Positions 1-12,287 of a stretch of DNA of 64,000 bases are shown here, in pieces. Position numbers and translations under genes: made by a program. The stretch is from the NCBI GenBank assembly GCA_012960315.1, contig DUBN01000024.1, positions 1-64,000 on the forward strand, in the 5' to 3' direction. The stretch is from Acidimicrobiia bacterium (GTDB taxonomy: Bacteria > Actinomycetota > Acidimicrobiia > Acidimicrobiales > Poriferisodalaceae). Within the stretch, counting starts at the first letter, position 1. Every line of letters starts with the position of its first letter. The notes below the pieces were generated by a model, which ran no database searches, was not told the DNA's origin, and worked only from the letters and a program-made list of their open reading frames with translations.

Positions 1-90
1 AAAGGGGAACACACCGACGAAATACTTCGCGAGTTAGGTTTCCGCGACCCTGAGATCGAGAAGCTGCGGGCCAAAGAAATCGTCGCCTGA
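1..90 (+). CDS. CoA-transferase family III (CaiB/BaiF), C-terminal end only
   Basis: Only the last 29 codons are inside the window; the rest lies upstream. The visible residues contain GEHTDEILRELGF followed by a Glu/Lys-rich helix. This is the typical tail of class III CoA-transferases and resembles the end of the complete family member at 42679-43902 (GEHNSEVLSELGL). These enzymes move CoA between carboxylic acids. The gene ends 13 bases before the alpha/beta hydrolase at 104 and probably shares its transcript. The family call rests on this short tail alone. Confidence 0.72.
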   Translation, partial: KGEHTDEILRELGFRDPEIEKLRAKEIVA

Positions 91-103
91 AGTAGCCCCG
101 AAT

Positions 104-955
104 ATGCGTGAACCTCTAACCAGTTTTGTTTCGTCAGAAGACAGCGTCGAAGTAGCCATCCATGATTACGGCGGCCAAGGACACCCCACGATTTTCGTTC
201 ACGGGACTGGGCTCACCTCCCGGATGTGGGAACCCATCATCGAACGGCTCGGTGCCAATTTTCGGGCAATCTGTGTCGACCTTCGCGCTCACGGAGCGAC
301 CAACAATCCTCTCGACATCAATTTCTTTGATCACCGAATGGTCGCTGACCTGTCGGCAGCAGCGGAGGCTTTAGCTCTCAAAGACGCCTGGATAGTTGGG
401 CATTCCATGGGTGGGGCAACGAGTCTTCTGACAAGCCTGGCGCTCCCTGACGCCTTCAGCCGAGCCTGGGTCTACGAGCCAATCATTTTTGAGCGAACCG
501 AAGAACGACCTGCCGGAGCTTTCGATTTTGTTGAGGCAACTAAACGTCGCCGCGCCGTCTTTTCCTCGAGATCTGAGGTGATTGAGCGTTACGGATCTCG
601 CGCACCACTTGATGAATTGCATCCGGAATGTCTTGAGGCGTACGTGCAGCACGGATTTATCGACAGGCCAGATGGTGCAGTGGAGTTGGCATGCTCGCCC
701 GCGCTCGAATCGAAAGCTTACGAGCAGTTCCTCCAACAAGGGTGGGGTCAACTACCTGAGGTAAGCATCGCGGTTCTTGTTGCCTACGGCGCCCGAGGAT
801 CAGACCGGCCATCAACAGAAGCTCCGGCGATAGCTGAACGCATACCGTCCGGCGTTGTCGAAGTGTTCGAAGACTCAGATCACCTCGGATGTTTTGGTCC
901 CCTTGAAGATGTAACAGCATCAATCCACAATTGGTTTACCGGTACGCCATCTTGA
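104..955 (+). CDS. alpha/beta hydrolase
   Basis: This 283-residue single-domain enzyme has the alpha/beta hydrolase fold. HGTG at residues 33-36 is the oxyanion-hole loop, GHSMGG at 99-104 places the serine nucleophile at Ser101, and a late SDHLG segment near residue 263 supplies the histidine. There is no signal peptide, so it is cytosolic. The family covers esterases, lactonases and C-C hydrolases. The CoA-transferase just upstream suggests a role in degrading a small organic acid or ester, but no substrate can be read from the sequence. It is convergent with the thioesterase gene, whose end is 7 bases away. Confidence 0.85.
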   Translation: MREPLTSFVSSEDSVEVAIHDYGGQGHPTIFVHGTGLTSRMWEPIIERLGANFRAICVDLRAHGATNNPLDINFFDHRMVADLSAAAEALALKDAWIVGHSMGGATSLLTSLALPDAFSRAWVYEPIIFERTEERPAGAFDFVEATKRRRAVFSSRSEVIERYGSRAPLDELHPECLEAYVQHGFIDRPDGAVELACSPALESKAYEQFLQQGWGQLPEVSIAVLVAYGARGSDRPSTEAPAIAERIPSGVVEVFEDSDHLGCFGPLEDVTASIHNWFTGTPS

Positions 956-962
956 AAACTCG

Positions 963-1811
963 TCAAAAACGCGTCAGCGCTTCTTGAGCTACCGAAGCGA
1001 CCAGTCGGTCGTGTTGCCACATTCGAGCCTCGGCAAGTCCACGAGCTCCTGAGGCCTCGACAGGCCACTGCTCTACATAGACCCATTCATCGGCGCGAGC
1101 CGGTGCGTGAAACCACATCGCATGGTCAAGACTCACAAGCATGGTCCCTTCCGTGCCCCAAGTACGTCCATGGGGAACAAGAAGTGTGTCAGCGACGCAG
1201 TCATCGCTCATATAGGCGAGAATCGCGGCGTGGACCTCGGGCTCATCGCTGAGCGGTCGTCGCGCCCGGAACCAAAAATTGATTCCTCCGGTTTCTGAGG
1301 GTCCAGTTGGCGACCATGGAGCATGTTCGATTCGGTACTCAACCGGGCGAGGACCGTGCGACCATTCCTCACCGAAAATGGGACCGACTTCCATCATGCA
1401 TTCTTCAAAGGTGGGAAGATTTTCTGGCTTGTCCAGATATTGAGGCGGCGGCGGGGAGATCACACCCGGCCCTGCTTCTGGAGTGTGAAATGAAGCAGTG
1501 AGATCGAAAATGCTCTTAGCGTTTTGGGAACCAGTTACGCGACGTTGACAAAAGGTGCGACCATCTCGGATTGTCTCAACGTCGTAGTCGATCTTCTGAA
1601 TTCCATCTCCGCCGCGCAAAAACAAGGCGTGGACTGAGTGAAGGCGTCGCTGGGGGTCTACCGATCGATATGCCGCGACAATTGATTGGGCTATTTGATG
1701 GCCACCATAAAGACCGTATCCGCTATGCCCCGAACCGAGACCGACAAACCCTTTGTCATCACGTTCTTTTAGGTCAAGAACGTCAAGTAGTTCACTAATG
1801 GGATCATTCAC
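963..1811 (-). CDS. acyl-CoA thioesterase II (TesB-like)
   Basis: This is a double-hotdog thioesterase that releases CoA from acyl-CoA. The sequence has the TesB pattern: a YGGHQIAQS block, RDGRTFCQRRV, YMSDD in the second hotdog, and the C-terminal SLDHAMWFH with ASVAQE. I chose GTG at 1811 (282 aa) because NDPISELLDVLDL aligns with the usual TesB N-terminus. An ATG at 1868 would add 19 residues and overlap the amidase by 14 bases. Neither start has a convincing ribosome binding site. It is the last gene of a minus-strand run aminotransferase-amidase-thioesterase. Confidence 0.85.
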   Translation of the reverse strand: MNDPISELLDVLDLKERDDKGFVGLGSGHSGYGLYGGHQIAQSIVAAYRSVDPQRRLHSVHALFLRGGDGIQKIDYDVETIRDGRTFCQRRVTGSQNAKSIFDLTASFHTPEAGPGVISPPPPQYLDKPENLPTFEECMMEVGPIFGEEWSHGPRPVEYRIEHAPWSPTGPSETGGINFWFRARRPLSDEPEVHAAILAYMSDDCVADTLLVPHGRTWGTEGTMLVSLDHAMWFHAPARADEWVYVEQWPVEASGARGLAEARMWQHDRLVASVAQEALTRF

Positions 1812-1854
1812 GATGGAACAGGCTGCCAGAATTGAACCGATCTGTCGCCTCGCT

Positions 1855-3312
1855 TCAAAGGCTCTCATAACCCGGAGGTGGAACGAACCCTCCTAGCTCA
1901 CGTTCGAGGAGGGATGCGAAATGAATGGACCTTCGGTCATGTAAATGCGGGGCGACTATTTGAATGCCCACGGGCAATCCTTCAAGCAGTCCCACTGGGG
2001 CGACCGTACTGGGCAAGTACACGCTGCAACTCCAACCCGCCCAGAACAGTTGGTCAACAACGGGTTCCTGCCCACCATCAATTTCGATGGTGCGATCAGT
2101 TCGCTCCCCTTCATGGTCATGAGGGAAGGCAGTGGAAGCAGCGGCTGGACAGAGGAGAAGGTCGAACTCGTCGAAATATTTTGCCCATTGCTGTCGATAT
2201 CGCTCGCGTTGCTGATGAAGAGCGAACCATTCGCGGTGGGTCATGTGCGCTCCATGGTCCACCAAATTCCGATAAGTGCGCTCTCCACGTTCCCAAGCTT
2301 CATGTCCTGGCAAAGCGAGAGCGAGTGCTTCGTCGTCCATTGATACGCCAGTTGCAGCTCGTAGCAGCAAGAGATAATTCTCAAAAAATTCCACCTGGTC
2401 AATGCGTGGGTTGGCGCTAGACACTTGCACTCCTAGCCCCGCGAGCTGGTCAATGGTGCCTTGCAGATGATCGATGAGCGGCGTGGCGGTTTTACACGCC
2501 GGCGTGTCAAGAAGAACACCAACGCGATAGTCACTGAGGGACTCTCTTGTGGAGTTAGGCAAATCAACTCGATATCCGGTGGCATCGAATCCGGCGGGAC
2601 CGGCCAGAACCGATAACGCCATGTCGAGGTCTTTGGCGCTTCGTGCAAGCGGCCCCACTACCGCAATATCTACGGCCGTCTCCACCCCCGGAGCTGTGTG
2701 CCCTTGTTGAGGAATCAAATCCATCGTCGGCTTATGACCGAACACGCCGCAGTAGTGGGCTGGATTCCGAATGGAAGCACCGATATCGCTACCGATTTCA
2801 AGGGCAGCCATTCCTGTCGCTAACGACACCGCTGACCCTCCGGAAGAGCCGCCCGGTGTTCGAGCTAGATCCCAAGGATTATTGGTGCAGCCATATAGAT
2901 CATTGAAAGATTGCCAATCAGCGAGCATGTAAGGCACGTTGGTCTTCGCCCAAATGACAGCTCCTGCTCCCAATAGACGTTCCACAGATGGGCTGTCAAC
3001 GTCTGGGAAGTTGTTGACCCATTTCGGATTACCCCAAGTTGAAGGTGTCCCTACCCAGTCGTAGGCCTCTTTAATAGTGACCGGCAACCCGTGGAAAGGT
3101 CCCCATGATTCCCCTTGAGCGGTTGCTTCGTCAGCCGCCAAGGCTCGATTTTGCGCTACTTCGATTCTGCTTTCGGTGATCGCGTTGACCGCAGGATTAA
3201 AGGCCTCACACCGAGCTACGGCCTCATCAAGTAGTTCACGAGCACTGGTTTCTCGAGATCTAATCAGGACCGCTAATTCAGACGCTGTTTTCAACATCAA
3301 ATCGTTTGACAT
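1855..3312 (-). CDS. amidase (amidase-signature family)
   Basis: This 485-aa cytosolic hydrolase cleaves a carboxamide to acid and ammonia (or amine). The Ser-cisSer-Lys triad is complete: Lys81 in PVTIKEAYDW, Ser156 in the GGSSGGS loop, and Ser180 in GSDIGASIR, with the 24-residue spacing between serines seen in this family. Length is normal. It lies 18 bases downstream of the aminotransferase and just before the TesB gene, so the three are probably one operon. The opposite-facing hydantoinase fusion suggests the substrate could be a ring-opened cyclic amide; that is inference. A second, more distant amidase is at 32694-34034. Confidence 0.9.
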   Translation of the reverse strand: MSNDLMLKTASELAVLIRSRETSARELLDEAVARCEAFNPAVNAITESRIEVAQNRALAADEATAQGESWGPFHGLPVTIKEAYDWVGTPSTWGNPKWVNNFPDVDSPSVERLLGAGAVIWAKTNVPYMLADWQSFNDLYGCTNNPWDLARTPGGSSGGSAVSLATGMAALEIGSDIGASIRNPAHYCGVFGHKPTMDLIPQQGHTAPGVETAVDIAVVGPLARSAKDLDMALSVLAGPAGFDATGYRVDLPNSTRESLSDYRVGVLLDTPACKTATPLIDHLQGTIDQLAGLGVQVSSANPRIDQVEFFENYLLLLRAATGVSMDDEALALALPGHEAWERGERTYRNLVDHGAHMTHREWFALHQQRERYRQQWAKYFDEFDLLLCPAAASTAFPHDHEGERTDRTIEIDGGQEPVVDQLFWAGWSCSVYLPSTVAPVGLLEGLPVGIQIVAPHLHDRRSIHFASLLERELGGFVPPPGYESL

Positions 3313-3330
3313 GCGGCAACCGTAGTTCGC

Positions 3331-4656
3331 TCAGCGAACCACCAGATCGAGAGCTTCACCGACAGCGGTCAGTAGGTGGTGAATGTCAGCATCGGAGGTG
3401 GCGAGATTCACACAACCCATCCCGTAACCACTGAAGTACACCTCGCGTTCAAGCAACCGATGCTGCAGAGATGCCATCACAGTCGCTTCATCACTATCGA
3501 GATGCGCGTCCCGGTAGCCACGAATTGGTCGTTGGTGTGGGTGGATTCGGAACAACGAGCCGGCGCCCGTCACCTGCCATTCGATTGACTGTTCTTCGAA
3601 CAGTTCTTTCAGTCCCTGGCGTATCTGATTACCAATGTTGTCCAACCGGTCAAAACTAGGTTCCTCAAGTTCTCGCATGCAGGCAACTCCAGCCGTCATC
3701 GTTACCGGGTTAGCGGTATAAGTCCCACCCGAAGGCACCGCAGCGCGGTCTCCTTCCACCGCCGCAAAAACTTCCATCACCTCAGATCTTCCCCCTATCG
3801 CACCAACGGGAAACCCACCACCAATAATCTTGGCAAGAACCGTTAGGTCTGGGTCTATACCGTGAACCGCTTGGGCACCTCCGCGCGCCAACCGAAACGA
3901 AATCACTTCGTCAAGAACCAAGAGCGCTCCAACTTCGCGGGTTGTTTTTCTGATCGCTTCACTGAAGATTGGGTCGAGAACGGGCATACCGACCCTCGAT
4001 GGCATGGGGTCAAGAAGAACGGCGGCCAGACGCGGTCCGACACGTCGAATCGCTTCAACTGCGCCGTGCGCGTCGTTGAACTGCACTACAACAACTTCGT
4101 CAACCAGCGATTCTGGGGCGCCTTGGGCGTAAGGAACTGTCGATGGAGTGTCAGCTACGCCCCAGTTTGATGGGTCTGGTCCGAGGCTCACCTCGGCATG
4201 GTCATAGGTACCGTGATAACTCCCTTCCACCTTGATAATCGCGGGGCGACCGGTGAACGCTCGGGCGGCTTTAATCGCTCCCATCACCGCCTCGGTTCCC
4301 GAGTTACAAAAGCGCACATGTTCGCAACTCGATATTCGGTTACAGAGAATTTCTGCAAGTTCGATTTCTGCTTCCGTCGCCATCGAGAAAGCTGTCCCTT
4401 TGCTGAGTTGCTTGCGCACGGCTGCTTCAACCATTGGATCGGCATGACCCAGAATGATCGAGGTGAAATTGTTGTTGCAATCTAGGTAGCGGTTGCCATC
4501 GACATCGGTAATCCAGGCACCTTTGCCGTTGTCGACGTAGATGGGGTGAGGTCGAATAATCACAGTGGATCGTGACACCCCGTCTGGGATGACTGCCAGG
4601 CCGCGTTGATGAAGTTCAGCGGAACGAGAAGTCGACGCAGGGTAGCTAATGCCCAT
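3331..4656 (-). CDS. class III aminotransferase / glutamate-1-semialdehyde aminomutase-like
   Basis: This 441-aa PLP enzyme belongs to fold-type I class III. FCNSGTEAVMGAIKAAR (near 116-132) binds the cofactor phosphate, Asp249 in LVLDEVISFR contacts the PLP ring nitrogen, and Lys276 in LAKIIGGGFPVGA is the Schiff-base lysine. The overall pattern is closest to the HemL-like branch, but there is no heme context. The position beside an amidase and a hydantoinase fusion favours a catabolic transaminase or aminomutase. It starts 42 bases from the oppositely oriented gene at 4699, so the two operons share a very short divergent promoter. Confidence 0.87.
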   Translation of the reverse strand: MGISYPASTSRSAELHQRGLAVIPDGVSRSTVIIRPHPIYVDNGKGAWITDVDGNRYLDCNNNFTSIILGHADPMVEAAVRKQLSKGTAFSMATEAEIELAEILCNRISSCEHVRFCNSGTEAVMGAIKAARAFTGRPAIIKVEGSYHGTYDHAEVSLGPDPSNWGVADTPSTVPYAQGAPESLVDEVVVVQFNDAHGAVEAIRRVGPRLAAVLLDPMPSRVGMPVLDPIFSEAIRKTTREVGALLVLDEVISFRLARGGAQAVHGIDPDLTVLAKIIGGGFPVGAIGGRSEVMEVFAAVEGDRAAVPSGGTYTANPVTMTAGVACMRELEEPSFDRLDNIGNQIRQGLKELFEEQSIEWQVTGAGSLFRIHPHQRPIRGYRDAHLDSDEATVMASLQHRLLEREVYFSGYGMGCVNLATSDADIHHLLTAVGEALDLVVR

Positions 4657-4698
4657 TTACACAGTCTCGCAGGTCAATGCGCGCGATGATCGATACCT

Positions 4699-7600
4699 AT
4701 GACGCAGTCTGAAACAACTCCAACAATAGCGAGCACACCTGAAGCTCCTTGGCGAATCGGTGTTGATGTTGGTGGCACATTTACCGATCTCGTGCTCGCT
4801 GATGCGTGCGGGAAGGCTTGGGTAGCGAAGGTTCCTTCTGTGCCTTCCGATCCGAGTCGAGGCGTGCTCGCTGCTGTTCAACGCATCGCAGTTGATCTAG
4901 GTCTCCCCAAGTCGGAAGTCCTGAGTCAGTGTTCTTTGTTTGTTCATGGTTCGACCATTGCAACGAACACGATGCTGGAAGGTAAAGCAGCCAGCGTTGG
5001 ACTGATTACGACCGAAGGTTTCAGAGACACGATCGAAATTCGACGTGGTCTTCGTTCTGATCAGTGGAACCATCGAGCTCCTTATGCGCCTGTGCTCGTT
5101 CCTCGTTACCTTCGCCGCTCGATACCGGGGCGGATCAATGCAGATGGAAGCGAGCATCAGCCACTTGATACCTCTTCTGTGCCCGAAATTCTCGCCGATT
5201 TTGAGAACGAACAAGTTGAAACAGTAGCCATAGCGTTAATGAACAGTTTTGTTGATGATCGCCACGAGCAACAATTAGCTCAGGTGGTCAAGGAACATTG
5301 GGGCAAGGAGTGGGTGACTTGCTCCGCCGAGGTCTCGCCTTTGATGGGCGAATATGAAAGAAGCTCTACCGCGGTAGTCAATGCTGCTCTTTCTCCTCGA
5401 ATCGTAAAGTACCTCCGTTCATTGGATGCTGAGTTGACGGCCGAGGGTCTCAGTCGACCAATCTTGTTAGTTCAGTCAAACGGGGGGGCAGCTTCCGTTG
5501 ATCAGCTGGCTAATCGGCCCGTAAATCTTCTACTCAGCGGACCTGCAGCAGCTGTCGGTGCCCTCAATCTGTATCGACGCGCCATCGATCACGCGGGCGT
5601 GGCTGCCGGAGACGAAGGCAATCTCATATCAATGGAGATCGGTGGGACCTCCTGTGATGTGCTCCTTATGTCTAATGGTGAGGTCGCAACACGCGATGAC
5701 ATAGACATCGCCGGGTATCACGTGTCTACGCCTGCGATCGATATTCACACCATTGGTGCCGGAGGCGGCACGATCGCCGGAGTCGACGAAGCGGGGCTTC
5801 TCTACGTTGGTCCCGAAGGAGCCGGAGCCGATCCCGGACCTGCCTGCTACGGCATCGGAGGCAAATTACCTACGGTCACAGATGCGCACCTTGTGCTGGG
5901 GCGTTTACGTCCTGGAAAATCTGCGGGAGGAACTCTTGATTTAGACATTGATGCAGCTCGGGAAGCAATAAATATTCATGTTGCACAAAAACTCGACATG
6001 TCTATCGAAGAAGCCGCCGCCGGCATCATCGAATTAGTCGAACAGCATCTGTTGAGCGCTGTTGAGCACATTTCGATTGAACGCGGGCATTCTCCTAGAC
6101 GATTCACGTTGGTTGCGGCCGGAGGCGCAGGCCCAATGCACGGTGCCAACGTCGCTGCCGGTTTAGGTTGCGCTCGAGTCCACATACCCCGGGATGCAGG
6201 AGCTCTCTGCGCCATTGGGATGCTGCACGCAGATGTCCGCCAGGACTTCACGAGATTTTTGCTCGGCTCACTAGATGAGGTGCCAGCCAGAACCATCGAA
6301 CAGGGCTTTGATTCTCTCACCGACGGGGCGCTCGCAGTTCTGTCAGCTGAAGGATTCTCAAAGCCCGAAGTCACTCTGAACTACGAAGTTGAGTTACATC
6401 ATCCGGGGCAACTTTGGTCCATCCGAGTGGCAGTTGAAGCAAAAGGATTTGACGCTCAGGCAGCGAGGTCAACATTCGAGGCCGAATACCAGCGTCTCTA
6501 CGGCCATGTGCAGCACGAGGGAACGATCATGGTTTCGTCTCTTCGTTTAACCGCTCGAGGGTCAACTGGCGAAGTTGAGATGGCCGGAGGCAGCCCGTCT
6601 GAAGGACTACCCGACCCGATCGATATGCGTTCAGTCTGGTTTCCTGGAACAGGATGGGCGAAAACGGTGGTACATGACGGATCTCTGTTACGGCCAGGCG
6701 ACAGCCTCGACGGACCGGCGCTAATCGAGGAAGCTACGACAACTGTTGTAGCCCGACCAGGCGACCGTTTATGGGTGGATAATTCGGGCGATTTCTTTAT
6801 TGACGTCGCTCAAACTGATGACAAGGTTGAGCATCGCGCTGGGGAGATGGACCCGGTCGTCTTGGCATTAATGCAAAATCGACTCGATCAGATCAGCCGA
6901 CATATGGGTTGGGTCATGACTCGAACAGCTCGAAGCACCATATTTAGCCAAAGCCACGATTTCAGCTGCTTCATCACCACCCCAGACGGCACCTTGGTCG
7001 CTAATGCTGACGGACTCCCTATTCATACAGGTGGCGGGGGGTTCGCTGTTCGCGCGTTGCTTGCCAAATATGGTGACACCCTCAATGTCGACGACGTTTT
7101 CCTTTTGTCTGACCCGTATGTGGCGGGCGGAAATCATTTACCTGACTGGGTAATCGCTCGACCAATCTTTGTGGGTGCTACCGACCCTGTGCTGGCAGGG
7201 TTCTGCTGCAACCGGGCACACCAGTCAGATATTGGTGGTGGGCTCGCCGGCACCTACAACCCTGAAGCAACCGAAATATGGCAGGAGGGAATTCGGCTGC
7301 CAGTCATGCGACTTATAGAGGAAGGCAAAGTCAGAGAAGACCTGTGGGAGTTGCTGATGCTGAACTGCAGAACACCTGAGCTCCTCGATGGTGATCTCTT
7401 GGCGATGCTCGGCTCTACCCAAATCGGTGGCGAACGCGTGGTCGGCTTAGCGACCGAGTTGGGGCTCGACGCGTATTTGTCCTATCTGGATGGCGTCCTC
7501 GACCATGCTGATCGACGCATGCGATCAGCAGTACTCGCCCTTCCTGATGGCACCTATTTTGGTGAAGACCACACCGACAATGACTGTTTCAAAAAGATAG

Positions 7601-8586
7601 ATATCGCTGTGCGAGTCAAAATGATTATTGACGGAGACGCGATGAGTATCGACTTCTCGGGAACTGACCCCCAAATCGAGGGCTTTAAGAACAGTTCGAT
7701 CGCAAACACGTACTCGTCTGTCTATTTAGCTATTTCCTCTTTTTTTGACACGAGCATTCCTCGTAACGAGGGGACCTACCGTTGCGTTTCGATCAACGCA
7801 CCCGAGGGTTCAATAGTTAATGCCCTACCTCCTGCCCCTATGACCATGAATACGGTTTATGTCGCACACGAGATCGTGATCGCGATTTGGCAGGCATTGG
7901 CCTCAGCGGATCCAACGCGAGCATGTGCAGCGTGGTCTAAAACCATGCACGGCCACGTAGCCGGTCGACGAGATGACGGAACCACCTGGGTGATGTACCA
8001 ATGGCACGCTATGGGCACTCCTGGCGCAACAGCTGAGCGCGACGGGTTCGCTCAAATGGGTCACCTCATCACCCTCGGCGGTCTTGATATGCCAAACCTG
8101 GAGTTTCATGAACAGCACTATCCGGTTCGCTACATCTGTCACGAACAACGCTGCGATAACGCTGGTCCTGGCGCTATGCGCGGCGGTACGGGCGTTCGCT
8201 ACGAGGCAGACATTCTCAAATCAGCTATTTGGTCGTTCCGAGCCGAAGGACTCGACACTCCAAGCGGTCACGGCGTAGAAGGGGGAGGGACCGGCGGGGT
8301 TGGACTCGAATGGATAATTCCAACCGATAGTGATGTCGACGGTCCAGCATTTATTCCCCCCAAGTACGGAGTCACCAAGCTTGGTCCTGCGAGAATGATC
8401 GCCGAAACACCCGGTGGCGGAGGATGGGGCGATCCTTTTGACCGGGATCCTGAATTGGTGCTGCGCGATGTGCGAGACGGGGTGGTGTCCCTCGAGGCAG
8501 CGCGACGCGATTATGGCGTGGCGTTAACTGCCAATGGGCAATCAGTTGACATGGTGGCGACCACCGCCGTGCGCGGTTCGACATGA
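4699..8586 (+). CDS. hydantoinase A/oxoprolinase - hydantoinase B fusion
   Basis: This 1295-aa protein joins two subunits that are usually separate in bacteria. Residues about 18-700 are HyuA-like: an ASKHA-type phosphate loop DVGGTFTD (24-31), HGSTIATN, and a QSNGGAAS segment. From about residue 716 it is HyuB-like (VLALMQNRLDQIS, HDFSCFITTPDG, and HTGGGG-type glycine motifs). Members open lactam or hydantoin rings using ATP (5-oxoprolinase, N-methylhydantoinase) or carboxylate ketones. The fused order resembles eukaryotic-type 5-oxoprolinase. The substrate is unknown. It is the first gene of a plus-strand run with the YbaK protein and an alpha/beta hydrolase, divergent from the aminotransferase/amidase operon. 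Confidence 0.9.
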   Translation: MTQSETTPTIASTPEAPWRIGVDVGGTFTDLVLADACGKAWVAKVPSVPSDPSRGVLAAVQRIAVDLGLPKSEVLSQCSLFVHGSTIATNTMLEGKAASVGLITTEGFRDTIEIRRGLRSDQWNHRAPYAPVLVPRYLRRSIPGRINADGSEHQPLDTSSVPEILADFENEQVETVAIALMNSFVDDRHEQQLAQVVKEHWGKEWVTCSAEVSPLMGEYERSSTAVVNAALSPRIVKYLRSLDAELTAEGLSRPILLVQSNGGAASVDQLANRPVNLLLSGPAAAVGALNLYRRAIDHAGVAAGDEGNLISMEIGGTSCDVLLMSNGEVATRDDIDIAGYHVSTPAIDIHTIGAGGGTIAGVDEAGLLYVGPEGAGADPGPACYGIGGKLPTVTDAHLVLGRLRPGKSAGGTLDLDIDAAREAINIHVAQKLDMSIEEAAAGIIELVEQHLLSAVEHISIERGHSPRRFTLVAAGGAGPMHGANVAAGLGCARVHIPRDAGALCAIGMLHADVRQDFTRFLLGSLDEVPARTIEQGFDSLTDGALAVLSAEGFSKPEVTLNYEVELHHPGQLWSIRVAVEAKGFDAQAARSTFEAEYQRLYGHVQHEGTIMVSSLRLTARGSTGEVEMAGGSPSEGLPDPIDMRSVWFPGTGWAKTVVHDGSLLRPGDSLDGPALIEEATTTVVARPGDRLWVDNSGDFFIDVAQTDDKVEHRAGEMDPVVLALMQNRLDQISRHMGWVMTRTARSTIFSQSHDFSCFITTPDGTLVANADGLPIHTGGGGFAVRALLAKYGDTLNVDDVFLLSDPYVAGGNHLPDWVIARPIFVGATDPVLAGFCCNRAHQSDIGGGLAGTYNPEATEIWQEGIRLPVMRLIEEGKVREDLWELLMLNCRTPELLDGDLLAMLGSTQIGGERVVGLATELGLDAYLSYLDGVLDHADRRMRSAVLALPDGTYFGEDHTDNDCFKKIDIAVRVKMIIDGDAMSIDFSGTDPQIEGFKNSSIANTYSSVYLAISSFFDTSIPRNEGTYRCVSINAPEGSIVNALPPAPMTMNTVYVAHEIVIAIWQALASADPTRACAAWSKTMHGHVAGRRDDGTTWVMYQWHAMGTPGATAERDGFAQMGHLITLGGLDMPNLEFHEQHYPVRYICHEQRCDNAGPGAMRGGTGVRYEADILKSAIWSFRAEGLDTPSGHGVEGGGTGGVGLEWIIPTDSDVDGPAFIPPKYGVTKLGPARMIAETPGGGGWGDPFDRDPELVLRDVRDGVVSLEAARRDYGVALTANGQSVDMVATTAVRGST

Positions 8587-8604: not shown

Positions 8605-9096
8605 ATGACTGATCCCGTAATTCAAACGCTTGACCGACTCCGCGCTGACTACGAAATCGTTGACTGTGACCCAGATCTAGCGGACACCGCTCAGTTTTGC
8701 GATCGCTACGGTTACCGGCTTGACGAAAGCGCTAACGCAATCTTGGTGGTCGGCAAGGCGGATCCGCGGGTGTACGCAATGTGTGTGGTGCTTGCCACCA
8801 CCCAAATTGATGTGAACAAAGTGGTGCGCAAGAAATTTGGGGTGAAGAAAGCATCGTTCGCTTCGCCGGAGGAAACGACTCAGATAACCGGGATGTTGCT
8901 GGGCGGAATCACCCCATTCGGTTTGCCAGAAACGCTGCCATTATGGATCGATAGCAGGGTAATGAACTGCCCGCGTGTCATCGTCGGCGGAGGATCACGA
9001 GACCGAAAGGTTTATGTCGATCCCCATAGTTTAGAAGCGCTGCCCTCGGCGCATGTCATCGAAAACCTTGCGAAAGAACGCCCTGCAGACACATAA
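8605..9096 (+). CDS. YbaK/aminoacyl-tRNA deacylase domain protein
   Basis: This 163-aa single-domain protein is of the YbaK/EbsC/ProX type. These domains hydrolyse mischarged aminoacyl-tRNA (for example Cys-tRNAPro). Visible family features are VVRKKFGVKKASFASPEE and the glycine-rich TGMLLGGITPFGLP segment, where the YbaK loop normally sits, plus an N-terminal ILVVGK strand. It follows the hydantoinase fusion by 18 bases and precedes a hydrolase gene by 38. Its presence in a catabolic operon is not explained by its usual role and may simply reflect tight packing. Confidence 0.82.
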   Translation: MTDPVIQTLDRLRADYEIVDCDPDLADTAQFCDRYGYRLDESANAILVVGKADPRVYAMCVVLATTQIDVNKVVRKKFGVKKASFASPEETTQITGMLLGGITPFGLPETLPLWIDSRVMNCPRVIVGGGSRDRKVYVDPHSLEALPSAHVIENLAKERPADT

Positions 9097-9134: not shown

Positions 9135-9878
9135 ATGACAGTCGTTCTTATCCATGGCAACCCCGAGACCGACGCTATCTGGGATCCGTTGCGCATTGAA
9201 CTGGCGCGAGATGACGTCGTCGCTTTGTCCCCTCCAGGATTTGGTGCACCTCTCCCCGAGAACTTCGATGTAACTAGTGACGGATATTTGCACTGGCTTG
9301 CACAGGAGCTCGAGAAACTTGACGGACCGATCGATTTAGTTGGTCACGATTGGGGAGGCGGCCACGTCGTTCGCCTCGCCATGACCCGACCCGATCTGAT
9401 CCGTTCCTGGTGCACCGACATCATCGGGATCTTTAACCATGAATACGTCTGGCACGACGCTGCTCAAAGCTGGCAGGGGCCAGACGGAGAATCCGCAGTT
9501 AGGGCCATGATTGATTTATCCGAGTCGGATCGAAGAGCAATCTTTGCTCAACTAGGTATGGGTGAATCGGTAGCTAGCAAAGTTGCGCCTTGGATAAATG
9601 ACGACATGGGGCAAGCCATTCTTGGTCTGTATCGCAGTGCCGCCCAACCAGTGGTTGGAAAACTCGGTGAGGCGTTACAGGATGCCGCCGAACGTCCCGG
9701 TCTGTGCATCGTTGCTTCAGAAGACACATACACGGGCGGCGAACTGCTGCATCGGCAGGCAGCGGATCGATCGGGGGCAGAAGTTGCAGTCCTCGAAGGC
9801 TTAGGACACTGGTGGATGTGTGAAGATCCGACTCGGGCTGCAGAACAGTTGAATCTCTGGTTCGACAAGCAAGACTAG
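9135..9878 (+). CDS. alpha/beta hydrolase, Asp-nucleophile type (dehalogenase/epoxide-hydrolase-like)
   Basis: This 247-aa cytosolic enzyme has HGNP at residues 7-10 (oxyanion loop), GHDWGG at 70-75 with Asp72 where serine hydrolases have Ser, and His225 in GLGHWW. The Asp nucleophile is the mark of haloalkane dehalogenases, epoxide hydrolases and fluoroacetate dehalogenases. Which of these it is cannot be decided here. AAGGAG lies about 7 bases before the ATG, supporting the start. It is the last gene of the short plus-strand run starting with the hydantoinase fusion. Confidence 0.85.
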   Translation: MTVVLIHGNPETDAIWDPLRIELARDDVVALSPPGFGAPLPENFDVTSDGYLHWLAQELEKLDGPIDLVGHDWGGGHVVRLAMTRPDLIRSWCTDIIGIFNHEYVWHDAAQSWQGPDGESAVRAMIDLSESDRRAIFAQLGMGESVASKVAPWINDDMGQAILGLYRSAAQPVVGKLGEALQDAAERPGLCIVASEDTYTGGELLHRQAADRSGAEVAVLEGLGHWWMCEDPTRAAEQLNLWFDKQD

Positions 9879-10016: not shown

Positions 10017-12287
10017 ATGGCGTCACAGGGTTCAATCCTAGGCAATGCAGTATTGAGGAAAGAAGATCCCGGTCTCTTAACGGGCTCCAACGCCTACGTT
10101 GATGATCTAGACATTGATACGGCTCAGATCGTGTTTGTGCGTTCAACCATGGCCCATGCTTCAGTGCTTGATATTGATATCAGCGGAGCCGAAGCAATGC
10201 CAGGTGTTCTAGCTGTGTACACCTCCAATAACCTCGAATTTGAAGCGGTGAATCAGTCTGAGTTCATGGATCCATCCATGAACCGTCCACCTTTAGCAGT
10301 TGGTCGGGTGCGGTTCGTCGGCGACATCATCGCCGCGGTCGTAGCTGAAACAAACTCTCAGGCGGTCGACGCGGCTGAGCTGGTAATCGTTGATTATGAC
10401 CCGCTTCCAGCTAACGCCGATATCGAAGCTGCGCTCGCTGACGGGGCTGATGTGTTGTGGGAAGGCGCTGAAAGCAACGTCTGTTTTGCTATCGGGAACG
10501 AGTACGACGGACCCGATGTAACTGAAGGAGCAGATGTCGTTGTTAGTGAGCGCATCGTTACTCAACGCCTAGCTGGCGTTCCGATGGAACCCAATGGTTG
10601 TGTCGCTATACCTGAGGGCGACTCAATGACGTTCTATGCCTCAACCCAGACAGCACACGGGCTACGCGATGGTCTCGCTCCAAACCTTGGATTTGAGCCA
10701 GAAAATCTGCGAGTGATAGCTCCTTGGGTGGGTGGTGGTTTCGGACCAAAGGCCGGGCTATACATCGAGCACATCCTTTGTGGGAAAGCGGCACAAGAAT
10801 TAGCGAGACCTGTCAGGTGGACAGAACAACGCAGCGAGAACATGGTTGCTATGGCTCAAGGTCGCGCCATGGTGATGAACGCAGAGTTGGGCGTAAATAA
10901 CGACGGGTCAATAGTCGGTCTGCGCGCTCGAGTCGTTGCAGACGCAGGTGCTTATCCCGCTCTTGGGGCCATTCTTCCGATGCTGACCATGCAGCTAAGT
11001 CAAGCGGTCTACGACATTCCAGCAATTGACTTCTTTGCCCAATCAGTTGTTACTAACACGACATTTATCGGCCCATATCGTGGAGCGGGGCGACCTGAGG
11101 CGACCCAAATGGTCGAACGAATTCTTGATAAAGCGGCTCACTCAATTGGCATGGACCCTGCGGAACTGCGGAGGAAAAACTACATACAACCGGATGCATT
11201 TCCGCTCACCACACTGGTTGGTTCCAACTACGACTCCGGGGAGTACGAACGCGCACTTGACGCCGTGCTGGAGGCTTCTGGATACTCAGAGCTGCGAGCA
11301 GAACAAGCCCGACGGCGCGAAGCCGATGATCCAACCCTTCTCGGGATTGGTGTTTCGTCATATGTCGAGGTGACGGCACCCATCGGCCTGCACGTCGAAT
11401 ATGGAAGCTGTGAGATCAACGCCGACGGTTCAGCGACTATCAAAGTCGGCACGAGCTCGCATGGCCAGGGACACGACACCGCTTTTTCTATGCTCGTTAC
11501 CGAAATTCTCGGCATTCCAATGGATCAGGTCAACCACGTCGACGCCGACACAGAGGATGTGCCTCGAGGCGCTGGGACTCTTGGTTCTCGGTCTCTTCAA
11601 ACCGCGGGTTCCGCCGTCTATGAGGCATCGAAAGTTGTTCTCGACAAAGGTAAGCAACTCGCGGCGAATCTCTTAGAAGCAAGTGTCGATGACATCGTGG
11701 TTGGTGAGGGGGCCCTCCAAGTGGCCGGCGTCCCAGCCAAGTCAGTGAGTTGGACTGAACTCGCGGCAGCTGCTGCAGAACAAAAGATCGAAGGTGGCTT
11801 GGCTCACGAACTTGACTTTGACGGTAGCGACGCTACGTATCCCTTTGGCTCACATGTAGCAGTAGTCGAAATTGACCGCGAGACTGGTCGCGTCGATTTA
11901 ATCCGTCACATAGCCGTCGACGACTGCGGAACTATTCTCAACCCCATGCTGGTCAACGGCCAGCAGCACGGAGGAATCGCCCAAGGCATCGGTCAAGCGC
12001 TTTGGGAGCACGTGCGTTACGACGAGGATGCGAACCCCGTAACAGCGAGCCTTATGGACTATTTGATGCCATCGGCCGCTGAATTTCCTAGCTTCGAGGT
12101 GTCAAATACCGAGACCGCCAGCCCGCGCAACCCGTTGGGTGCCAAGGGAATAGGCGAATCGGGCACAATCGGTTCGACACCAGCGGTCCACAACGCCGTG
12201 TGTGATGCTCTCGTTCATTTGGGAGTTGAACACGTCGATATGCCTTGCAGCCCGCAAACGGTGTGGAACGCACTTCAAAGCGTTTAA
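10017..12287 (+). CDS. xanthine dehydrogenase / CoxL-type molybdopterin-binding subunit
   Basis: This 756-aa large subunit of the molybdenum hydroxylase family hydroxylates purines, aldehydes or aromatic heterocycles. The glycine-rich cofactor loop APWVGGGFGPKAG is at about 240-252, PYRGAGRPE at about 354-362 matches the form II (non-CO-oxidising) signature, and GAKGIGESG near 707-715 contains the catalytic glutamate. The FAD (CoxM) and 2Fe-2S (CoxS) subunits are normally encoded next to it. Neither is in this window, so the partners must be elsewhere. It is therefore not a classical CO dehydrogenase operon. About 138 bases of non-coding sequence precede it, enough for its own promoter. Confidence 0.9.
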   Translation: MASQGSILGNAVLRKEDPGLLTGSNAYVDDLDIDTAQIVFVRSTMAHASVLDIDISGAEAMPGVLAVYTSNNLEFEAVNQSEFMDPSMNRPPLAVGRVRFVGDIIAAVVAETNSQAVDAAELVIVDYDPLPANADIEAALADGADVLWEGAESNVCFAIGNEYDGPDVTEGADVVVSERIVTQRLAGVPMEPNGCVAIPEGDSMTFYASTQTAHGLRDGLAPNLGFEPENLRVIAPWVGGGFGPKAGLYIEHILCGKAAQELARPVRWTEQRSENMVAMAQGRAMVMNAELGVNNDGSIVGLRARVVADAGAYPALGAILPMLTMQLSQAVYDIPAIDFFAQSVVTNTTFIGPYRGAGRPEATQMVERILDKAAHSIGMDPAELRRKNYIQPDAFPLTTLVGSNYDSGEYERALDAVLEASGYSELRAEQARRREADDPTLLGIGVSSYVEVTAPIGLHVEYGSCEINADGSATIKVGTSSHGQGHDTAFSMLVTEILGIPMDQVNHVDADTEDVPRGAGTLGSRSLQTAGSAVYEASKVVLDKGKQLAANLLEASVDDIVVGEGALQVAGVPAKSVSWTELAAAAAEQKIEGGLAHELDFDGSDATYPFGSHVAVVEIDRETGRVDLIRHIAVDDCGTILNPMLVNGQQHGGIAQGIGQALWEHVRYDEDANPVTASLMDYLMPSAAEFPSFEVSNTETASPRNPLGAKGIGESGTIGSTPAVHNAVCDALVHLGVEHVDMPCSPQTVWNALQSV

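Follow-up and report, generated by a model that had tools for sequence, protein, structure and literature searches.

The genes encoding a fused HyuA-HyuB protein (HyuAB) and a class III aminotransferase resembling glutamate-1-semialdehyde 2,1-aminomutase (GSAM) form a conserved divergent pair, suggesting that a cyclic nitrogen compound is degraded in two steps by a route not yet described. This reading draws on the protein families, their catalytic residues, the conserved spacer between the two genes, the gene order, and the co-occurrence of both genes across genomes. We hold with moderate confidence that HyuAB and the divergent aminotransferase constitute the core of the locus, in which a cyclic amide would be opened and the product then transaminated, both genes probably being read from overlapping promoters in the spacer.

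Gene organization of the locus

The window, i.e. the whole stretch of 64,000 nucleotides that was analysed, is the start of contig C24 (the contig end is at position 1) of a 2.82-Mb genome comprising 91 contigs. The closest named relatives are Acidimicrobiia assemblies, and the HyuAB of Candidatus Microthrix sp. UBA2110 (L040) is 98% identical to that of the window. An initial annotation had described a 42-base divergent region at 4657-4698, and its coordinates are exact, the flanking start codons being at 4656 on the minus strand and 4699 on the plus strand (Table 1). The enzyme families that it had read from motifs are confirmed by Pfam, which recognizes an Aminotran_3 protein, an Amidase, a TesB-like protein, a fused HyuA-HyuB and two Abhydrolase_6 proteins. 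The CoA-transferase end that it had reported is likewise present at 1-90, and relatives exhibit a complete CoA_transf_3 gene at the same place (L042:4176-5354, 330.8 bits), with genes for a hydrolase and an EamA-type transporter ahead of it. Further upstream of the CoA-transferase, a DMGDH/GcvT-like protein is encoded in L042 (2-2317) and an MTTB-family methyltransferase in L043 (806-2485), hinting at the use of methylated amines nearby. On the right side, the conserved gene set extends to the tRNA-editing-domain protein, the second hydrolase, the CoxL/XdhA-like large subunit and a thiolase, with a membrane-protein-like product (judged by eye) lying between the last two.

Table 1. Features of the HyuAB/aminotransferase locus (positions in the window).
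Feature	Position	Strand	Basis or remark
Family III CoA-transferase, C-terminal end	1..90	+	Translation; last 29 residues; cut by contig end
Alpha/beta hydrolase 1	104..955	+	PF12697 (Abhydrolase_6), 73 bits
TesB-like acyl-CoA thioesterase	963..1868	-	PF02551/PF20789/PF13622 (Acyl_CoA_thio/4HBT_3)
Amidase-signature hydrolase	1855..3312	-	PF01425, 290 bits; PRK06170, 548.9 over cut-off 503
Candidate leaderless -10 box of the amidase (TACGGT)	3319..3324	-	In the 18-bp aminotransferase-amidase gap (3313-3330)
Class III aminotransferase, GSAM-like	3331..4656	-	PF00202, 203 bits; start codon at 4656
Divergent spacer	4657..4698		42 bp, flanked by the start codons of the aminotransferase and HyuAB
Conserved core of the spacer, AGTCTCGCAGGTCAA-GCGCGCGATGATC	within 4657..4698		Alignment of close loci
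Candidate extended -10 (TGC-GAGACT) of the aminotransferase	4663..4671	-	Hexamer at -12 to -7 relative to the ATG
Candidate -10 (GATGAT) of HyuAB	4685..4690	+	14 to 9 bases before ATG; invariant in the spacer alignment
Fused HyuA-HyuB	4699..8586	+	Four Pfam domains, single 1295-aa frame
Aminoacyl-tRNA editing domain protein	8605..9096	+	PF04073; 18 bp downstream of HyuAB
Alpha/beta hydrolase 2	9135..9878	+	PF12697 (Abhydrolase_6)
CoxL/XdhA-like molybdopterin hydroxylase large subunit	10017..12287	+	PF20256, PF02738, PF01315

HyuAB as a predicted cyclic-amide hydrolase

HyuAB-type genes are common and most have no assigned substrate. The genome of the window itself shows eight Hydantoinase_A matches, i.e. 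several HyuA-type enzymes. Within HyuAB, the domains Hydant_A_N (PF05378), Hydantoinase_A (PF01968), Hydant_A_C (PF19278) and Hydantoinase_B (PF02538) are all found above their cut-offs in a single protein, which belongs to the family of ATP-dependent cyclic-amide hydrolases, comprising lactamases, hydantoinases and oxoprolinases. Among the NCBIfam models, caprolactamase CapA and CapB are the best-scored families for the two halves, with 578.1 and 320.5 bits, which is below the equivalog cut-offs (1000 each). The models of the acetophenone carboxylase subunits also match, at 263 and 180 bits, as would be expected if HyuAB opened no ring and instead carboxylated its substrate with ATP, like the acetone and acetophenone carboxylases. 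This function is very unlikely, as the caprolactamase and N-methylhydantoinase scores are far higher. The solved relatives of HyuAB are CapAB (6yra) and the fused N-methylhydantoinase 7hk5. The latter is likewise a single HyuA-HyuB chain of about 1290 residues, and its end-to-end alignment with HyuAB (627 bits) indicates a moderate similarity. In contrast to the setting of N-methylhydantoinase, no creatinine-pathway genes were identified beside HyuAB in the window.

The catalytic metal residues are common to CapAB and HyuAB. The tetrad D754, H813, D816 and H841 aligns to positions 41, 99, 102 and 124 of CapB and is kept in all 56 HyuAB loci compared. In the ATP site, the Asp of the first phosphate motif (D23) is present in the 53 loci aligned there, and the adenosine motif GxxPGP is kept. 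The second phosphate motif exhibits a Glu instead of an Asp in 54 of 55 loci, with the Asp remaining in one; in the window, this residue is E313 (5635-5637), which lies opposite Asp295 of the CapA ATP site. In caprolactamase, the metal and ATP sites are essential or nearly so, ATP and bicarbonate are required, and an Asp-to-Ala exchange at the second phosphate motif nearly abolished activity (PMC8453981). OplAB of Pseudomonas putida cuts valerolactam, which shows the wide range of HyuAB-type enzymes (PMC11033972).

The GSAM-like aminotransferase

Within NCBIfam, the aminotransferase matches GSAM models best, and its nearest solved chains are 6k8h and ForI. It lies in the class III branch that comprises GSAM, beta-transaminases, D-phenylglycine aminotransferase and ForI, with which the PLP lysine and the N-terminal Arg region can be aligned. 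An assignment as hemL was rejected: in contrast to GSAM itself, the protein remains below the hemL cut-off (TIGR00713, 326 bits for a cut-off of 527.3), and a separate, true hemL (561.5 bits) is located on contig C64.

The PLP lysine K276 is conserved in 40 of 40 aligned copies and R29 in 41 of 41, while R255 and R382 are likewise invariant in the 40-41 copies aligned. With regard to a possible membership in the beta-transaminase/ForI subgroup, R29, a putative substrate-binding residue, aligns to the Arg of ForI and of 6k8h. A Gly is found at the presumed position of Glu406 of GSAM, and both R29 and this Glu406 may mark functionally relevant positions. The enzyme may also be related to 3-aminobutyryl-CoA aminotransferases. 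Beta-transaminases are themselves GSAM-like (PMC3281772).

Conservation of the divergent pair

The 56 loci of HyuAB relatives are a sample drawn from 80 pattern stretches. The comparison of neighbourhood gene order left out loci L001-L008, and L069 and L088 come from one assembly, which is counted twice. For distant loci, open reading frames were called by codon usage; longest-first calling gave spurious frames in the high-GC loci.

The initial annotation had named a loss of gene order in relatives as evidence against a functional link. No such loss was seen, as every close relative whose sequence covers this region keeps the order. Where HyuAB is at least 82% identical and the aminotransferase side is covered, the divergent pair is found in 17 of 17 loci, of which 16 exhibit a spacer of exactly 42 bp; in the seventeenth (L048), the spacer is 41 bp when the starts are extrapolated. 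This constancy of arrangement places the divergent pair above chance. Over the whole sample, 34 of the 56 loci have an aminotransferase on the strand opposite to HyuAB within the locus sequence, with the start codons within 0.7 kb in 31 of them and 1.35, 2.45 and 7.65 kb apart in the other three. Most neighbours are replaced in distant loci and the aminotransferase is kept, among others in L084 and L059, whose assemblies bear the labels Rhodospirillaceae and Gammaproteobacteria, respectively. The distances between HyuAB copies and those between aminotransferase copies correlate at 0.87 (34 pairs), a value that shared descent alone could produce. In L078, a glycine-betaine-monooxygenase-like Rieske oxygenase (7322-8518, minus strand) lies between two aminotransferase copies, and the same cluster is found in L053, L069 and L086.

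An aminotransferase is missing from the locus sequence in 22 of the 56 loci. A search of the corresponding whole genomes found a copy of 49-63% identity elsewhere for nine of them and none for 13, and some of the unlinked copies are explained merely by a contig that ends beside HyuAB. Among the 13 genomes without a copy, five have a distant HyuAB (best segment at most 60%) and eight have a HyuAB of at least 64%. Thus, in eight of the 51 loci with a HyuAB of at least 64% (L056, L067, L068, L076, L077, L082, L085 and L089), the genome has no aminotransferase above 40% identity, and incomplete assemblies may account for this lack in some of the eight.

The two genes also occur together at the genome level. 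The order survey comprised 118 genomes drawn from a larger group and the phylum survey 396 genomes; the locus and genome surveys overlap and are not independent, since G040/L094, G106/L055 and G024/L062 give identical places. The same seven of the 118 order genomes have an aminotransferase of at least 56% and a HyuAB of at least 66% identity, the next best hits being at 40% and 36%, respectively. The pair is adjacent and divergent in G000, G100, G106 and G070 (where HyuAB is split between contigs, with its start in L011), whereas the two genes are separated by 2.5 kb in G059 and by 7.7 kb in G024, and lie on separate contigs in G040. Among the 396 phylum genomes, neither orthologue was found outside the genome of the window, except for an aminotransferase of 49% identity in G302, which has no close HyuAB.

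An alternative is that the genes are chance neighbours in slowly rearranging genomes, with the spacer conserved merely as the holder of two promoters. The wider neighbourhood, including a housekeeping ribulose-phosphate epimerase gene, is indeed collinear too in the close clade. Nevertheless, the aminotransferase stays by HyuAB after the other neighbours have changed and co-occurs with it even when unlinked, so that a chance association appears unlikely.

The 42-bp spacer and its candidate promoters

The spacer between the two genes is far more conserved than neutral positions of HyuAB. In a set of 11 non-redundant sequences, hand-picked from 18 by dropping near-identical ones and with L048 realigned, 26 of the 43 aligned spacer columns are invariant, versus two of the 390 fourfold-degenerate HyuAB sites in the same sequences. 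Across all 18 sequences, in whose alignment L048 is one base out of register, the major base reaches a mean frequency of 0.90 in the spacer, compared with 0.59 at third codon positions. The spacer core is unique in its own genome, where it was found in one place at up to three mismatches, and this search revealed no further motif copies that would form a regulon.

Within the window, six of 46 genes have the motif TANNNT at a distance of exactly 6 bases from their start codon, on the upstream side, for about 0.003 expected per position. This peak is characteristic of leaderless promoters, suggesting that many genes of the lineage are leaderless. The candidate -10 of the aminotransferase, GAGACT, is at the same distance as this peak and differs from TANNNT at the first base. 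The candidate -10 of HyuAB, GATGAT, is a weak match to the consensus and sits two bases further out than the leaderless distance. Both hexamers begin with a G where the consensus has a T. In L051, L054 and L075, it is HyuAB itself that has TGCGAGACT upstream at the leaderless distance. Judging from these motifs, the spacer probably contains two overlapping leaderless promoters, possibly requiring an activator. As the -10 boxes are invariant and non-canonical, a shared activator or operator is suggested. A sigma-70 scan gave a single match, within the aminotransferase gene, and none in the spacer. A palindromic operator in the spacer was rejected, as the best candidate (14 of 20 positions) was reached by 8.6% of shuffled sequences and is not significant.

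Neighbouring genes outside the core

The initial annotation had grouped the aminotransferase, amidase and TesB genes into one operon. The three genes are collinear and close, with the TesB reading frame overlapping the amidase end by 14 bp. Nevertheless, all 17 close loci exhibit a TACNNT box, in 14 of them TACGGT, at 6-7 bases upstream of the amidase start codon, which renders the three-gene operon doubtful. The amidase, judged by this leaderless-type -10, probably starts its own transcript together with TesB. On the other side, the sequence upstream of the tRNA-editing-domain gene is not conserved, so the HyuAB transcript perhaps includes this gene, and a TACGAT-like box and an AAGGAG are conserved upstream of the second hydrolase.

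The presence of these genes across genomes differs from that of the pair. An amidase of at least 52% identity is found in seven genomes (G000, G059, G100, G094, G024, G016 and G106), of which G094 and G016 are without the pair, and the amidase of the pair-bearing G040 is just 42% identical. In the order survey, TesB above 50% identity is confined to the family. The TesB-like protein scores 185 bits against TIGR00189, for a cut-off of 292.85. Since the amidase, TesB and the CoxL-like protein fail to track the pair, the unit backed by the evidence is the HyuAB/aminotransferase pair and not the cluster.

These observations bear on the single pathway that had initially been proposed for all neighbours, in which HyuAB would open a hydantoin-like ring, the amidase would remove a carbamoyl or amide group, the aminotransferase would remove the amine, and the CoA-transferase, TesB and thiolase would handle the acid. 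The part of this proposal that links HyuAB to the aminotransferase stood, as both occur together in seven of seven order genomes that have either orthologue, whereas the amidase, TesB and the CoxL-like protein are conserved beside the pair just in the vicinity of the window's family and do not follow it further out. Every gene is in the same order within the close clade. The solved relatives of the amidase are ClbL and the urethanases UMG-SP1/2/3, and urethanases cleave carbamates (PMC11708778). The caprolactam genes of Pseudomonas jessenii, too, have a CoA-transferase of class III type and a thiolase in their vicinity (PMC6061476). Nevertheless, we consider a pathway of this extent improbable, given that, beyond the family, the presence of the amidase, TesB and CoxL-like genes is not tied to that of the pair, that the conserved -10-like box belongs to the amidase itself, and that TesB and the CoA-transferase could catalyse opposing steps.

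The CoxL-like gene suggests another route, in which this hydroxylase would make a lactam from a cyclic amine or N-heterocycle, HyuAB would open it and the aminotransferase would deaminate the product, a Rieske oxygenase acting first in the L053/L078 group. In the close clade, as in L051-type loci, a CoxL-like gene is located on the downstream side of HyuAB, a distant locus (L092) has one 13 bp after split HyuA and HyuB genes, and the Rieske gene lies between the aminotransferase copies of L078 in the cluster shared by L053, L069 and L086. However, the L092 copy is just 38% identical, and no partner subunits are encoded near the CoxL-like gene of the window: neither small nor medium subunits were found next to it, and Fer2_2 gave no match on its own contig, for seven elsewhere in the genome. 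The best NCBIfam model of the CoxL-like protein is the glyceraldehyde dehydrogenase alpha subunit (610 bits, below the cut-off of 790), so that the oxidation of an aldehyde is equally possible. Order genomes that lack HyuAB commonly have CoxL-like homologues of 59-64% identity, for which reason this enzyme was set aside as a core member. This oxidative route is, in our view, quite unlikely.

Proposed function of the pair

The closest described system is the caprolactam catabolism of P. jessenii, in which a lactamase of the HyuAB type, dependent on ATP, acts first, a class III aminotransferase second, and CoA steps come last, with CoA-transferase and thiolase genes near (PMC6061476). The initial annotation knew of no described pathway with exactly this set of enzymes; the caprolactam pathway is similar, but its aminotransferase is of a different type, being a subgroup II omega-aminotransferase (PMC6061476), whereas the enzyme of the window is GSAM-like. 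In addition, CapA and CapB of P. jessenii are separate genes, while HyuA and HyuB are fused here, and no 6-oxohexanoate dehydrogenase, LhgO or CsiD was identified in the window neighbourhood. The pair may thus work like the caprolactam pathway, membership of which is not implied. In the open-licence literature, we found no paper naming the HyuAB/aminotransferase pair.

From the protein families and the arrangement of the genes, we infer the substrate class, the order of steps, the promoter use and the regulator. The HyuA half would most likely activate a cyclic amide (a lactam, a hydantoin-like compound or an oxo-heterocycle) at the expense of ATP, and the HyuB half would hydrolyse the activated amide at its metal site, so that a linear amino acid is formed. 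From this product, the GSAM-like aminotransferase would then transfer the amino group released by ring opening to a keto acid acceptor, and a semialdehyde or keto acid would remain. Transcription of both genes would probably start from two promoters that overlap within the 42-bp spacer and are perhaps leaderless, and which a polymerase would be unable to occupy at once. In nearer relatives, compounds may enter or leave the pathway by way of the amidase-TesB genes, the CoA-transferase, the hydrolases and the CoxL-like gene, which lie outside the deep core. Against this reading, a dehydrogenase of the NAD type that would take up the product semialdehyde was not found beside the pair, with no NAD-type aldehyde dehydrogenase among the nine neighbourhood proteins scanned. 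The eight HyuAB loci from genomes lacking the aminotransferase, the lone aminotransferase of G302 and the Glu in the second phosphate motif also speak against it. 5-Oxoproline and hydantoins, the substrates put forward initially, are reasonable candidates, none of which is singled out by the sequence. A more detailed version is tentative and has the lesser part of our confidence: an ATP-driven pathway would convert a natural cyclic amide into a beta- or gamma-amino acid that is transaminated, the Glu variant of HyuA would mark the clade, and one regulator bound in the middle of the spacer would switch both genes.

HyuAB and the aminotransferase form a small two-enzyme unit across a conserved control region, and the pair narrows the substrate of this HyuAB clade to a compound that yields a transaminable amine upon hydrolysis. 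The host group consists of uncultured bacteria, several of them marine, in which the two genes are usually found together. The pair may help explain how uncultured Acidimicrobiia draw nitrogen from dissolved cyclic amides.
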